Shown here: piece after piece, positions 3,825-10,690 of the stretch
How the letters are laid out: each line of letters begins with the position of its first letter
How positions within the stretch are numbered: the first letter of the stretch is position 1
Source: a virus
Length of the DNA stretch: 22,489 nt
Strand: one strand, 5' to 3'
IMG/VR virus record: IMGVR_UViG_3300017782_000249
Coordinates: 1 to 22,489 of that record
Translations under genes and position numbers: made by a program
The notes under the pieces: generated by a model
Told to the model about the DNA's origin: nothing
Seen by the model: the letters and a program-made list of their open reading frames with translations, nothing else
Database searches by the model: none

Positions 3825-4218
3825 TAAATTTGAAAAGGCATTAGTTTTATTTCTGAATACATTTGACGGTTGGAAACTTGAATGGGTGGGAGACGAAAAC
3901 CTATGCTATGACGCTATTGGTAAAACACCAAAAGGTCACGATTGCGTTATGGAAATGAAATTTAGAAAAAAATACTACGAAACTAAATTACTTGAAAAAA
4001 AGAAGTACGATAACCTAATGGCTTTAGGCAAAGACATTATAAAAATATATTTTGTAAGTGACCCTAAAGGCAGCTACTATTTTTGGTTAAATAAAATGAT
4101 TGACTTAGAAATGTTAACCCAGCAAATGCCTAGCACAACGTTTTGGCGCAAACATAAAATCGAAAAACAAGTCTATATGTTAAAAGAAGAATGGGCTAGT
4201 ATAATTAACAAAAGTTAA
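3802..4218 (+). CDS. PD-(D/E)xK nuclease-like protein (putative)
   Basis: A 138-residue protein. D37 in LCYDAIGKTP and E51-M-K53 in CVMEMKFR, separated by a short beta-hairpin, fit the D-(x13)-ExK core of PD-(D/E)xK nucleases. KIYFVSDPKGSYYFW and a C-terminal tail ending LKEEWASIINKS surround it. Such small nucleases in phage early regions cut branched or damaged DNA; the substrate here is unknown. It is the last gene before a strong promoter at 4235-4265, so this transcription unit probably ends or is reinforced here. Confidence 0.6.
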   Translation: MKEITTTNKFEKALVLFLNTFDGWKLEWVGDENLCYDAIGKTPKGHDCVMEMKFRKKYYETKLLEKKKYDNLMALGKDIIKIYFVSDPKGSYYFWLNKMIDLEMLTQQMPSTTFWRKHKIEKQVYMLKEEWASIINKS

Positions 4219-4225
4219 AAAAGTT

Positions 4226-4245
4226 TTATTAAAATTTGTTTATAA
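4226..4245 (+). repeat. 20-bp promoter-upstream repeat, copy 1 (copy 2 at 9128-9147)
   Basis: TTATTAAAATTTGTTTATAA is identical at 4226-4245 and 9128-9147, and both copies are preceded by an A-rich AAAAAAG stretch. Each copy carries the TTTG that forms the upstream promoter element, so this is a duplicated promoter region and not random AT-rich similarity. Confidence 0.85.
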
Positions 4246-4265
4246 CTTATGTTTGTTTATATTTG
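4235..4265 (+). promoter_or_regulatory. Bacteroidota-type host promoter
   Basis: TTTG at 4235-4238, 19 bp, then TATATTTG at 4258-4265, an exact match to TAnnTTTG. This is the primary-sigma consensus of Bacteroidota (-33 TTTG, -7 TAnnTTTG, 19-21 bp spacer). Expected start is near 4272, giving a leader of about 23 nt before the ATG at 4295. It should drive the 4295-6215 genes, including the RecE-like and DnaA-like genes. Confidence 0.75.
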
Positions 4266-4280
4266 TAGTGTTAAACAATT

Positions 4281-4297
4281 AAACAATAGAAATTATG
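4281..4297 (+). repeat. Leader repeat AAACAATAGAAATTATG (copies at 4281 and 9382)
   Basis: The 17 nt including the start codon are identical upstream of the genes at 4295 and 9396, the same two genes that follow the duplicated promoter. Shorter AAACAATA or AAACAAATA versions precede the starts at 900, 2027 and 9803. These A-rich leaders lack a Shine-Dalgarno and probably act as translation-initiation signals. Confidence 0.75.
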
Positions 4298-4531
4298 AAA
4301 AATTACCCTACCCTTTACGAGCAATTAAAAGCCGAAAACAAAATACTTGTTGATGAAGCATTAATTAAATACCCATTTACAGGCAAGAGGTTATTAGACT
4401 TTTTAAACGAGGAACATTTTCAGATTAACATACCTTTAGGTTTGGCACTAGATTTAACTTTATATTGTAACAAAGGATATACCAGCGATTTTGGTGTTAT
4501 ACTAAGTTTATTTAATAATGATGAAAAGTAA
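4295..4531 (+). CDS. Hypothetical phage protein (78 aa)
   Basis: First gene after the 4235-4265 promoter, with the shared leader AAACAATAGAAATT before its ATG. The protein begins MKNYPTLYEQLKAENKILVD and is helical in character, with hydrophobic NIPLGLALDLTLYC near the end and a polar tail. No recognised domain. It overlaps the next gene by 14 bp. As a promoter-proximal early gene it may be highly expressed. Confidence 0.7.
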   Translation: MKNYPTLYEQLKAENKILVDEALIKYPFTGKRLLDFLNEEHFQINIPLGLALDLTLYCNKGYTSDFGVILSLFNNDEK

Positions 4532-6225: not shown

Positions 6226-6807
6226 ATGGAAACAGAATTGGTGCCAGTAAGTGCAGTAAAAGAAAACCCAAACAACCCACGTTTTATAAATAAAGTAAAG
6301 TTTAAAAAGTTGGTTAATAGCATAAAGCAGTTGCCTGAAATGCTACAAATTAGACCAATAGTTGTTAATGAAAATAATGTAATATTAGGCGGAAATATGC
6401 GATATAAGGCTTGTATAGAAGCAGGGCTTGATAAAATACATATTGTTAAAGCTAAAGGGTTAACAGAAGAACAACAAAAGGAATTTATAATAAAAGACAA
6501 TGTAGGGTTTGGGGAATGGGATTGGGATATATTAGGCAATACTTGGGATAATCAAAAATTGAATGAATGGGGGCTTGATGTTTGGCACCCAGAAGAAAGT
6601 GTAAGTAATGAAAAAGATTATAGTATAAATAGCCTAGATGAAAAACTTGGAAGGTTTTTAGACGCTAAAATTAAAAACATAACAATACCTTTTGAAACAG
6701 AAGAATTTTCAAAAGTTGTAGAAAAACTTGAAATACTTTTAGAAAGGTATAAATGTGAAGATTATAGGGCATTAATTTATAAAATAATAGAAAATGAAAA
6801 GGTATAA
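6226..6807 (+). CDS. ParB-like nuclease-fold protein
   Basis: A 193-residue protein with an N-terminal ParB/Srx-type domain: LVPVSAVKENPNNPRF (residues 5-20), KFKKLVNSIKQL, RPIVVNENNVILGGNMRYKA (GGNMR, residues 55-59) and the helix ACIEAGLDKIHIVKA. The part after residue 75 (EFIIKDNVGFGEWDWDILGN) matches phage ParB proteins, which are not chromosome-segregation ParB. It lacks the usual helix-turn-helix DNA-binding domain. It overlaps the oxygenase gene by 14 bp. ParB-like domains recur beside TET/JBP oxygenases in phage DNA-modification clusters, so a link to modified DNA is plausible here. A CTPase or nuclease activity cannot be decided from the sequence. Confidence 0.8.
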   Translation: METELVPVSAVKENPNNPRFINKVKFKKLVNSIKQLPEMLQIRPIVVNENNVILGGNMRYKACIEAGLDKIHIVKAKGLTEEQQKEFIIKDNVGFGEWDWDILGNTWDNQKLNEWGLDVWHPEESVSNEKDYSINSLDEKLGRFLDAKIKNITIPFETEEFSKVVEKLEILLERYKCEDYRALIYKIIENEKV

Positions 6808-7627
6808 TTTAGTAAAACACCAAGACAGTACACGGTTACTAAAAACAACACCAAGTAAAGAACACTATGATACAGTAATAAATGAAGACACTGCATTTTA
6901 TTTAGATGATATTTGTATTGGTATATATGTAAACATAGACAAAGAACTTTTAAGCTATGTAAGGGAAGCAGTTAAAGAAACTAAATATGTAGAAACATAC
7001 AGGGCAAATACATTACCAACTAAAAGCAGTGTATTTGGTGCATTACCTAGAGTGGCTTTAAGGAATGACTTTTGCAGGTTTAGCAATAAAACTAACGAAG
7101 AAAAACAAAACACCAATAAATTATTCACTTTCCAAAAAACGCTATGCGATATATATAAAAAGCATTTGCCTGAACTTTATGAATATGATTTAAATAAAGC
7201 GCGTGAAACTGTAAATGATGACTACAGGTTAATAGACACACCTTATACAACTGCAAACATAAACGTTAACCACGCTATAAAATACCATAAAGATAGCGGA
7301 AATATAAAAGATAGTTATAGTAATGTACTTATACTAAAAGAAAATTGCACAGGTGGCGAACTTGTTTTGCCTGATTATAGGGTAGCTTTAAAACAAAGTG
7401 ACGGTGCATTATGTATATTTAGCGGTCAAAAAGAAATACACGGTGTTATGCCAATAAAACCACATAAAGAAAATTTTTACAGGGCAAGTATAGTCTATTA
7501 TACTTTAGCACAATTAGAACACTGTTACCCATATAAACAAGAAGTAACAAGGCTAAACCTAAAAAAAAGGGAAAGGGCTTTAAAAAGAAAAGATAACATA
7601 GACCCACGTATAAATGGACAAAAGTAG
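6794..7627 (+). CDS. TET/JBP-like 2-oxoglutarate/Fe(II) oxygenase
   Basis: A 277-residue protein. The double-stranded beta-helix core runs from about residue 150: YTTANINVN, then H165-K-D167 (first two iron ligands), SNVLILKENCTGGELVLP (GGeLvlP strand), GALCIFSGQKEIHGVMPI with H216 (third iron ligand), and YRAS with R230 (2-oxoglutarate anchor). FGALPRVALRNDFC near residue 78 and the charged insert before the core match the phage TET/JBP-type branch. Known members hydroxylate thymine or 5-methylcytosine in DNA. Substrate and base are unproven here. It overlaps ParB-like and small-terminase genes by 14 bp each, so it is expressed with packaging genes. A protein or free-nucleotide substrate is possible. 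Confidence 0.8.
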   Translation: MKRYNLVKHQDSTRLLKTTPSKEHYDTVINEDTAFYLDDICIGIYVNIDKELLSYVREAVKETKYVETYRANTLPTKSSVFGALPRVALRNDFCRFSNKTNEEKQNTNKLFTFQKTLCDIYKKHLPELYEYDLNKARETVNDDYRLIDTPYTTANINVNHAIKYHKDSGNIKDSYSNVLILKENCTGGELVLPDYRVALKQSDGALCIFSGQKEIHGVMPIKPHKENFYRASIVYYTLAQLEHCYPYKQEVTRLNLKKRERALKRKDNIDPRINGQK

Positions 7628-7973: not shown

Positions 7974-9108
7974 CAAAGTATTTAGGCACTGCAATAACGC
8001 TACAAAAAAAATATTAGTTGAACAGGGTGGGACACGCTCAGGGAAAACTTACAATATCCTACTATGGATAATATTCAAATATTGTTACGAGAATGAAAAG
8101 AAAATTATAACAATATGCCGCAAAACTTTTCCAGCAGTAAGGGGTACAGTTATGAGAGACTTTTTAGACATACTAAAAACACATAAAATATACAATGAAG
8201 AAAACCACGCTAAAAGTGCAAACGAATATTATATAAACGGTAATTTAATTGAGTTTATAAGTTTAGACCAGCCACAAAAAATTAGGGGGCGTAAAAGGGA
8301 TTTGCTATTTGTTAATGAAGCTAACGAAATAAACTTTGAAGATTGGCAGCAATTAATATTTAGGACTAACGACAGAATAATAATTGATTATAACCCTAGT
8401 GACGAATTTCATTGGATATATGATAAGGTGCTAACTAGGGGTGACGTAGAATTTTACCAAACTACATATAAAGATAACCCTTTTATTAGCCAAGAAATAA
8501 TACAAGAAATAGAAAGGCTAAAAGACACAGATGAAAACTATTGGCGTATTTATGGTTTAGGTGAACGTGGACAAGCTAAGTCGCTTGTATTTACATTTAA
8601 AACAACTAAACACATACCTACAGAAGCGAAACTAATTGCTAGGGGGCTAGATTTTGGTTTTTCAAACGACAGTACTGCATTGGTAGAAACTTACATACTA
8701 GACCAAGATATGTACGTTAATCAATTAATATACAGAACTGGTATGACTAACCAAGATATTGGTAATGAGTTCCACAGGCTAGGGCTAGATAGGCGTGATG
8801 AAATATTTTGCGATAGTGCCGAGCCAAAAAGTATAGAAGAAATACACCGTATGGGGTGGAACGTAAAACCTACTTACAAAGGTTCTATAAATATTGGAAT
8901 AGATATGATTAGGCGCTACAAATTAAATGTAACAGAAAGTAGCTTAAATATTATTAAGGAACTGCGAAACTATAAATACATAGAAGACAAGAACGGACAA
9001 CTAACCAACAAACCTATTGACGCATTTAACCACGCAATAGACGCTTTACGTTACTCTATAGTTAATAAATTAGGCAGACCTAAATACGGTACATACGCTA
9101 TAAGATAA
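7957..9108 (+). CDS. terL: Terminase large subunit (packaging ATPase-nuclease)
   Basis: A 383-residue protein. Walker A is GGTRSGKT (residues 24-31), Walker B DLLFVNEAN (catalytic E121). The C-terminal RNase-H-like nuclease supplies metal-binding acidic residues in GLDFGF (near 230), FCDSAEP (near 280) and DAFNHAIDALRYS (near 355-365). It packs DNA into proheads and cuts the concatemer. The length is typical of the PBSX-like/Terminase_3 group. The start is GTG at 7957; the first in-frame ATG would remove the Walker A motif. Downstream lies a promoter and a structured non-coding stretch instead of a portal gene, which is unusual. Confidence 0.92.
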   Translation: MEIQTNKVFRHCNNATKKILVEQGGTRSGKTYNILLWIIFKYCYENEKKIITICRKTFPAVRGTVMRDFLDILKTHKIYNEENHAKSANEYYINGNLIEFISLDQPQKIRGRKRDLLFVNEANEINFEDWQQLIFRTNDRIIIDYNPSDEFHWIYDKVLTRGDVEFYQTTYKDNPFISQEIIQEIERLKDTDENYWRIYGLGERGQAKSLVFTFKTTKHIPTEAKLIARGLDFGFSNDSTALVETYILDQDMYVNQLIYRTGMTNQDIGNEFHRLGLDRRDEIFCDSAEPKSIEEIHRMGWNVKPTYKGSINIGIDMIRRYKLNVTESSLNIIKELRNYKYIEDKNGQLTNKPIDAFNHAIDALRYSIVNKLGRPKYGTYAIR

Positions 9109-9127
9109 AAAAAAACTAAAAAAAAAG

Positions 9128-9147
9128 TTATTAAAATTTGTTTATAA
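9128..9147 (+). repeat. 20-bp promoter-upstream repeat, copy 2
   Basis: Identical to 4226-4245 (TTATTAAAATTTGTTTATAA). It contains the TTTG upstream element of the promoter at 9137-9168. The spacing to the -7 element differs by one base from the first copy. Confidence 0.85.
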
Positions 9148-9168
9148 GTAAAAAAGGTTTTATGTTTG
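9137..9168 (+). promoter_or_regulatory. Bacteroidota-type host promoter driving the structured RNA
   Basis: TTTG at 9137-9140, 20 bp, then TATGTTTG at 9161-9168, an exact TAnnTTTG match. Expected transcription start is near 9175, just before the 13-bp helix at 9179. It could drive a stand-alone RNA, or the genes from 9396 with a leader of about 220 nt. Confidence 0.75.
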
Positions 9169-9174
9169 GGTATA

Positions 9175-9368
9175 AATAAATTGTTAATGAGTTCAACACG
9201 GGGAAGTAGGGGGACGAAAGTTTAATGAGTTGCAGAACACCATATGCCGTTAAGAATTCATTGACAATTAAAAATAATATCAATAACAATAAACAATAGG
9301 CGTAGGTGGTTAAGATGATTGTCTTAGTAATAAGAATGGTGTACGTGCCTTAACTACCTTTCGCTTTT
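9175..9368 (+). ncRNA. Candidate structured non-coding RNA (or long structured leader)
   Basis: No long reading frame fits this stretch after the promoter. Two domains fold by eye. Domain 1: 9179-9191 pairs with 9257-9269 (13 bp, two G-U pairs), enclosing ACGG 9198-9201 with CCGT 9247-9250 and a small GAAA-capped hairpin near 9212-9223. A 10-bp direct repeat TTAATGAGTT (9184-9193, 9222-9231) allows an alternative fold. An A-rich linker runs to about 9298. Domain 2: 9304-9314 pairs with 9349-9359 (11 bp, one G-U), extended by GCG 9300-9302 with CGC 9362-9364, and contains a hairpin UCUUA/UAAGA with a GUAA tetraloop (9327-9330). TTTT follows at 9365. It could be a free RNA of about 190 nt or the leader of the gene at 9396. 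I cannot name a known family. Confidence 0.5.
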
Positions 9369-9381
9369 AAAATTAAATTAT

Positions 9382-9398
9382 AAACAATAGAAATTATG
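9382..9398 (+). repeat. Leader repeat AAACAATAGAAATTATG, second copy
   Basis: Identical 17 nt to 4281-4297, ending in the ATG at 9396. It follows the structured RNA directly, so the gene at 9396 uses the same initiation context as the gene at 4295. Confidence 0.75.
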
Positions 9399-9620
9399 CA
9401 ATTAGAAAACACAATTTATTACCACGATGTTGAACTAGAGTTAATGTACCAATTTAAACCTGCTGAAGAAGATACATACGACTATCAGGGTTGTGACGCA
9501 GTAGCAGATATTATAGAAGTTAACGTAGGCTGCGTAGACATTATTGGCATACTTAACCAAGACCAATTAGAAGAAATTGAGCAATTATTAATCTTTGAAC
9601 ACTCAATTGGTAGGTTATGA
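9396..9620 (+). CDS. Small acidic hypothetical protein (74 aa)
   Basis: A strongly acidic protein beginning MQLENTIYYHDVELELMYQF. It has a central polar segment (EDTYDYQGCDAVADIIEVNV) and a helix near the end (NQDQLEEIEQLLIFEH). The alternating strand at the start and the final helix suggest a small alpha/beta fold. No known family recognised. It is the first gene after the structured RNA and shares its leader with the gene at 4295. Confidence 0.7.
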   Translation: MQLENTIYYHDVELELMYQFKPAEEDTYDYQGCDAVADIIEVNVGCVDIIGILNQDQLEEIEQLLIFEHSIGRL

Positions 9621-9772
9621 GAACGCAGCTAACAGACTTAACAAACGAGTTAAAAGAAGTAAGGCAAACCATAAGGTTATGCGAATACGAAAAAGCAGAA
9701 GACACATATTTTTACAAGTGGCTAAAAAACAAAGAGGACAAAATACTTTGTACTATTATTAATATTCAGTAA
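9617..9772 (+). CDS. Short hypothetical protein (51 aa)
   Basis: Starts MRTQLTDLTNELKEVRQTIR and ends NKEDKILCTIINIQ. ATGA overlap with the gene before it supports translation. The first half has heptad-like spacing and is probably helical. Function unknown. Confidence 0.65.
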   Translation: MRTQLTDLTNELKEVRQTIRLCEYEKAEDTYFYKWLKNKEDKILCTIINIQ

Positions 9773-9802
9773 ATTAATCACAAACAATAAAAAATCAAAA
9801 CA

Positions 9803-10075
9803 ATGAAATTTAAAGTAAGAAATTTTACAAGCAAAAGAAGTGGAAGCGAAATAGCTAACCAGTTTATTATTGAAACACCAAAAGGCACATACTTTCAATC
9901 CTACGATAGTATTATAGTTTTTAAAAGGAATGACGGACAAGTATTTTTAGACAAGCAATACTGGAACTATAGTGTAACAACAGGCAAATACAGAAAACTA
10001 TTTTTAAATGAGAATATTGCAGAGACTAGGTACAAAATACTTATGAAGGAGTACAAAATTAAAAACCTAAACTAA
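9803..10075 (+). CDS. Small conserved phage protein (90 aa, DUF8033-like pattern)
   Basis: A basic 90-residue protein: IIETPKGTYFQSYDSIIVFK, then VFLDKQYWNYSVTTGKYRKL and ending ETRYKILMKEYKIKNLN. The combination of FQSYDSI, LD..YW.YS.TTGKYR and a short C-terminal helix matches small phage proteins I recall as DUF8033-like; function unknown. It starts behind an AAACAATA leader with about 30 bp from the previous stop. Confidence 0.7.
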   Translation: MKFKVRNFTSKRSGSEIANQFIIETPKGTYFQSYDSIIVFKRNDGQVFLDKQYWNYSVTTGKYRKLFLNENIAETRYKILMKEYKIKNLN

Positions 10076-10149
10076 TGGTACGTACTAAAGATATGTATAT
10101 GTACTACATACAAATTGTAGTAAATGAATACGAATTACAAAAAGACTAA
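10075..10149 (+). CDS. Possible 24-residue peptide
   Basis: A TAATG overlap starts a 24-codon frame (MVRTKDMYMYYIQIVVNEYE, ending LQKD) that runs 26 bp into the next gene. The junction type is normal for this phage, but the length is too short to judge coding. It may only couple translation to the glycosyltransferase gene. Confidence 0.25.
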   Translation: MVRTKDMYMYYIQIVVNEYELQKD

Positions 10150-10690
10150 AAATAACTCTATTGTTTTAGTTGGAAATGGTGGCTCACTCTTAAATTCTAA
10201 TAAGGGTGTTGCCATCAATTCTTTTAAAGACGTTGTTAGATTTAATAACTTCAGGATAAATGGCTATGAAGCAGACGTAGGCACCAAAACTACAATTTGG
10301 TTTACCGTAAATTGCAACCTAGCTAAATTAAAAGGCAAATACAAAAAAGTATATTTCCATAGCTGGGAGTGGGACAGAAGTAAAACAAAATGTTATTATA
10401 CGCTTTTAGGCGCATTTCCTGCGCTTTTAAACACAGAAAGGCAAGATTGTATAGAATTAAAAGAAAAGTTGCCTAAATACCCACATATGGCTTTTAGCAC
10501 TGGTTTAATTGCTATCCACTTATTGTTAAAAGAATACGAGCATTTACATTTAGTTGGTTTTGATTGGCATTTAAACAGTTACCCACACCATTACGGAGAT
10601 ACAGAACCAAAAGGGCATTTGCACAACCCATATTTAGAATGGGAATATATAAGCAGATTAAACAGAATGGGCAAAATAACCTTCCTATAA
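10124..10690 (+). CDS. GT29 sialyltransferase-like glycosyltransferase
   Basis: A 188-residue protein with motifs of glycosyltransferase family 29. The L-type motif is IVLVGNGGSLLNSNKGVAI (residues 13-31), followed by DVVRFNNF and GYEADVGTKTTIW. The S-type motif is FSTGLIAIHLLLKEYEHLHL (residues 124-143), ending VGFDW. YPHHYGD and HLHNPYLEWEYI supply the downstream His and Glu (motif III and VS region). It is shorter than animal enzymes (about 300 residues), as bacterial and phage relatives are. It probably transfers a sugar from a nucleotide donor, CMP-sialic acid or a related acid sugar. The acceptor is unknown: modified phage DNA, virion protein, or host surface. Confidence 0.8.
   Translation: MNTNYKKTKNNSIVLVGNGGSLLNSNKGVAINSFKDVVRFNNFRINGYEADVGTKTTIWFTVNCNLAKLKGKYKKVYFHSWEWDRSKTKCYYTLLGAFPALLNTERQDCIELKEKLPKYPHMAFSTGLIAIHLLLKEYEHLHLVGFDWHLNSYPHHYGDTEPKGHLHNPYLEWEYISRLNRMGKITFL

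Follow-up and report, generated by a model that had tools for sequence, protein, structure and literature searches.

The window, by which we mean the whole stretch of DNA analysed here, corresponds to one virus record of IMG/VR, 22,489 bases long, and its gene content is consistent with that of a Bacteroidota tailed phage. Its genes follow the order helicase, PAPS reductase-like protein, sigma-like protein, exonuclease, ParB-like nuclease, TerS, TerL, a group of small genes together with a GT29 sialyltransferase-like gene, and then probable structural genes. Related loci, 80 in all, were gathered via TerL. The gene at 10124–10690 matches glycosyltransferase family 29 (sialyltransferase; Pfam E 2.8e-17) and is common to the relatives L004, L005, and L007. 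Upstream, a queuine tRNA-ribosyltransferase-like gene (6794–7627, PHROG 6059), present in three relatives only, possibly encodes a DpdA-type 7-deazaguanine DNA modification enzyme.

The end of terL (9108) and the start of the next + strand gene (9396) are separated by a gap of 287 bases, in which no + strand ORF of at least 30 aa was found. This is the longest non-coding stretch behind terL among the surveyed phages, with the exception of L080 (3484–3963), which appears to be an open coding frame whose start has been cut off. We found no coding similarity between the gap and the small ORFs of the relatives, and a decayed gene was rejected as an explanation since no coding relic of the relatives' genes is present. 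Three mini-ORFs (9187–9225, 9225–9299, and 9315–9353), two of them lacking an A at -3, gave no support for translation, and ARAGORN returned no tRNA or tmRNA match in the candidate RNA. The features of the gap are listed in Table 1; downstream of the two-stem stretch there is a run of about 13 kb of genes on the same strand.

Table 1. Features predicted between terL and the gene starting at 9396, with positions numbered from the first base of the window.
Feature	Position	Strand	Basis or remark
-33 element TTTG, Bacteroidota sigma-A type	9137–9140	+	Pattern scan
-7 element TATGTTTG	9161–9168	+	20 nt after the -33 element; G at -9 atypical
Predicted transcription start	9173–9175	+	Inferred from the -7 register in PMC6847099
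Domain 1	9179–9269	+	16-bp helix 9179–9194/9254–9269; inner ACGG/CCGU 9198–9201/9247–9250; purine-rich interior
A/U-rich linker	9270–9297	+	Mostly unpaired; like the 5' UTRs of phage genes nearby
Domain 2	9298–9366	+	Helices 9298–9302/9362–9366 and 9304–9314/9349–9359; hairpin 9322–9326/9331–9335 with GUAA loop
CGCTTTT end, weak terminator candidate	9362–9368	+	From sequence
5' UTR TAAACAATAGAAATT of the 9396 gene	9381–9395	+	Copy of the UTR at 4280–4294 (downstream of the promoter at 4235)
74-aa gene, unknown family	9396–9620	+	Conserved in L004–L007

An earlier note on this DNA had placed a "strong Bacteroidota promoter" ahead of a structured RNA. The promoter match stands, with -33 and -7 elements at the right spacing, but the word strong does not. 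In F. johnsoniae promoters, for which the consensus is TAHHTTTG, the -7 box hardly ever carries a G at -10 or -9 (PMC6847099), and TATGTTTG departs from the Bacteroidota sigma-A -7 box in precisely this respect; the same G at -9 is also seen in two relatives, L023 and L024 (TAAGTTTG). The pattern of TTTG about 20 nt before TAnnTTTG, found here at 9137–9168, has four matches in the window versus 2.0 expected by chance. Both of the intergenic matches have an upstream block in common, the sequence TTATTAAAATTTGTTTATAA before the -33 element being common to the promoter at 4217–4265 and to the post-terL promoters of the relatives, in which a promoter after terL is retained. At a larger scale, the regions 4207–4300 and 9109–9401 look like two promoter-UTR units with blocks of 39 and 21 nt in common.

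Downstream of this promoter match, the predicted fold of 9175–9368 contains the helices that had been described before. The closing helix of domain 1, given as 13 bp (9179–9191 with 9257–9269), does pair and is actually a continuous helix of 16 bp with two G-U pairs (U9185–G9263 and G9191–U9257). The 11-bp helix of domain 2 and its UCUUA-GUAA-UAAGA hairpin (9322–9335) are also present in the fold, to which we can add an outer helix, AGGCG/CGCUU. The minimum free energy of the stretch is -47.1 kcal/mol versus a shuffle mean of -35.8 (z -2.93), with none of 200 shuffles as good, and the whole gap (9106–9395) has a fold z of -3.71. The complementary strand folds worse (-34.0 versus -47.1), and each of the four non-Watson-Crick positions in the main helices is a G-U pair on the + strand and would be A-C on the - strand. 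Since the imperfect pairs are all + strand wobbles and the - strand folds worse, an RNA made from the strand that the promoter would transcribe is favoured over a DNA palindrome. When the gap was shuffled 300 times, a stem of at least 16 bp appeared twice; shuffling the whole window gave one in 85 of 300 cases (28%). The strongest local fold of the window is found elsewhere, at 10101–10300 (z -5.1, + strand); this stretch lies where the GT29 sialyltransferase-like gene begins, and its long hairpin falls within coding sequence. Given the frequency of such stems in whole-window shuffles and a best fold that coincides with the beginning of a coding gene, the predicted structure is of moderate significance, notable for its place and not extraordinary in itself.

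The CGC-TTTT end listed in the earlier note is a weak terminator candidate that the analysis did not confirm. A scan finds no terminator-like site, and the end falls short of an intrinsic terminator, in which a U-rich tract comes after a compact G+C-rich hairpin: it has only four U followed by AAAA, and the 69-nt hairpin of domain 2 runs on into UUUUAAAA. Nor did the pattern scan yield a promoter match in the stretch from 9368 to 9396. From the predicted start to the ATG at 9396 the distance is about 223 nt, far above the median flavobacterial 5' UTR of 24 bp (PMC9723704), and the start region of the 9396 gene is mostly unpaired in the predicted fold (0.29). The sequence TAAACAATAG appears on either side of domain 2, at 9290–9299 (the domain edge) and at 9381–9390, hinting at an insertion or duplication of leader modules.

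With the 9396 protein alone as query no relatives were found, and those of its gene were found through synteny with terL. The nearest one, L004, shares 95% terL identity and keeps the syntenic set 9396-9617-9803-10124-10724. In L004 the interval between terL and the 9396 homologue holds a promoter, a gene of 107 aa, and a simple GGGGGGCGAAAGCCCCCTTTT hairpin, and lacks the RNA seen in the window. Other small genes occupy the same place in L005–L007, and the relatives carry the same operon behind ordinary short leaders. The post-terL slot is hypervariable, with different small genes in each relative. In L004 (4090–4115) and behind terL in L005, L006, L007, and L042, G-run/C-run hairpins with T-tracts (e.g., GGGGGGCGAAAGCCCCCTTTT) separate small accessory genes, and some of them have no new promoter behind, so that these terminators must either be leaky or be overcome by antitermination. 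The RNA of the window is absent from L004 and from all other terL-bearing loci searched. A role in packaging, which the earlier note had allowed for from the position beside the terminase genes, is consequently unsupported and unlikely, as phages with the same terminase do without the RNA.

Homologues were also looked for well beyond these loci. Rfam 15 covariance models gave no match to the RNA above the gathering score, and five pieces of the RNA, run as exact and gapped patterns against IMG/VR, returned either nothing or coincidences that lay mostly in coding sequence. Two single-sequence covariance models were built, one of the whole RNA and another of domain 2. The former found nothing convincing in 98 + 60 + 32 loci, 44 records, and 395 Bacteroidota genomes, its best genome scores (22–30 bits) being at chance level for 395 genomes, and the latter found nothing convincing in 98 loci and 30 records. 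A DNA search of the 395 Bacteroidota genomes matched mainly the A/T linker. Overall, no homologue of the RNA body was found in the contigs of the relatives, viral contigs, phage and plasmid records, or the 395 Bacteroidota genomes, so that the RNA is, in the terms that the earlier note had set against its own proposal, poorly conserved. Absence from the collections searched is not proof of uniqueness, and as matters stand the candidate rests on a single sequence.

A different non-coding element is found in the same slot of L006 (86% terL identity), at about 4375–4470. Its core of about 95 nt, with the pattern GTGGGGAATG...CCGTGAAAGTTGACGAAC...GTATCCAAGTTCATTTG.AGCCCGCCCCAT, is kept almost unchanged across a dozen further viral contigs (L192, L193, L196–L199, L202, and L204–L208), and in several of them it is flanked by TAACG...GTTAT. 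The element has no Rfam match, was not found in the 395 Bacteroidota genomes, and has an unexceptional predicted fold energy (z -0.1). As read from the alignment, one position of the closing helix is A-U, U-A, or C-G across contigs, i.e., it shows paired variation. By analogy, the element is reminiscent of an integron attC site or of a mobile structured RNA, and it is possibly a better lead than the RNA of the window. One could go further and suppose that the post-terL slot exchanges mobile structured RNA modules along with small genes, the modules of the window and of L006 being self-contained RNA regulators or host-interaction RNAs of undescribed families, but we regard this as improbable.

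The reading that we prefer, at a probability of roughly 45% and therefore tentatively, is that of a lineage-specific structured insert in the accessory slot, which would make up about 200 nt of an approximately 223-nt 5' leader of the 9396 operon. Transcription would begin at the post-terL promoter and pass through the two hairpins to the ribosome-entry stretch of the 9396 gene, the unpaired A-rich stretch 9367–9395 keeping the start codon open. Such a leader would serve the accessory small-gene operon 9396–10690 and perhaps the structural genes that follow, and its 5'-terminal hairpins may protect the mRNA, tune the passage of polymerase beyond the leader, or both. Transcription, read-through, and any regulatory effect are all inferred. 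In favour of a leader are the promoter match in register, the promoter kept behind terL in relatives, the fold better than its shuffles and than the - strand, a stem rare for the gap, the + strand wobbles, the unusual length of the gap and its lack of a + strand ORF of 30 aa or more, and the mostly unpaired start region of the 9396 gene; against it are the lack of homologues in the collections searched, a nearest relative without the RNA, and the atypical -7 box. The earlier note had left the choice between a free RNA and a leader, and what survives is a structured non-coding stretch behind a promoter match, for which we prefer the leader because there is neither a good terminator nor a second promoter before 9396.

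An independent small phage RNA of about 195 nt, with the domain 2 hairpin and CGC-UUUU as its 3' end and with host or phage RNAs as its targets in trans, would account for the promoter match, for the compact two-domain fold, and for the UUUU that follows the hairpin at 9365–9368. It appears nevertheless rather improbable, as the four-U tract runs into AAAA with no terminator-like site detected by the scan, the next gene lies 27 nt on without its own promoter and would need read-through, and no homologue is known from the collections searched. A serious rival, although in our judgement still an unlikely one, is that there is no selected RNA at all and that the fold arose by chance in leftover or shuffled intergenic DNA of a fast-changing accessory slot. 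The different small genes in the slot of each relative, the absence of the RNA from a phage with 95% terL identity and from every collection searched, the 28% of whole-window shuffles with a 16-bp stem, and the better fold at a coding-gene start all speak for chance; yet so long a non-coding gap is unusual in the slots of the relatives, the stem is rare within the gap itself (2/300), and the imperfect pairs of the main helices are all wobbles on the + strand.

Two more specific mechanisms appear far less probable. The promoter-proximal two-stem RNA ahead of the same-strand gene run of about 13 kb could be compared with an antitermination or attenuation leader, like HK022 put or lambda late PR'-tR', that lets polymerase pass hairpins of the downstream late operon, and put RNAs are indeed two stem-loops behind early promoters (PMC9378689). 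This is very doubtful, given that the same operon has ordinary short leaders in the relatives and that put, at about 70 nt, is active without this architecture. Hardly more credible is a bistable translational switch in which the 5' half of domain 1 (9177–9213) would pair with codons of the 9396 gene (9412–9456) while a second TTAATGAGTT copy (9222–9231) takes the 3' arm. The 10-nt direct repeat, the near-equal energies predicted at one transcript length (-49.5 versus -49.3), and the fact that only 7 of 1000 target shuffles are as good speak for it. On the other hand, domain 1 wins (P about 1.0) once the transcript reaches 9500 or beyond, the complementarity ranks 80 among 3452 genome windows, and the homologous codons of L004, which lacks the RNA, score -19.2 versus -22.0. 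From the genome rank and the L004 control, this long-range pairing was judged not exceptional and was rejected.

Returning to the structured leader, if it is expressed, the accessory slot behind the terminase would carry regulatory RNA besides protein genes, in a group of phages whose non-coding RNAs are scarcely explored. Known systems offer partial likenesses. The lambda late leader, PR'-tR', is a 194-nt "6S" transcript, and the candidate resembles it as a promoter-proximal RNA of about 190 nt that lies ahead of late genes and may end short of the first one, but differs in that its terminator is unconvincing, no regulator like Q was identified, and the relatives have no counterpart. The pRNA of phi29, a non-coding packaging RNA, is similar in being non-coding, phage-borne, and located near packaging genes, although the phage of the window has a TerS/TerL pair and the RNA is missing from relatives that share its terminase. 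HK022 put shares the two hairpins soon after a phage promoter with an operon downstream; however, it is about 70 nt long and has been aligned across several phages (PMC9378689), whereas the candidate has about 190 nt and no relatives found. Structured 5' UTRs have also been described among the 5' cis-regulatory RNAs of the Flavobacterium psychrophilum transcriptome (PMC9723704); our candidate differs from them in being phage-borne, without a family match, known as a predicted transcript, and followed by a gene of unassigned function, and is like them in that a TAnnTTTG promoter precedes a leader that is long and structured.
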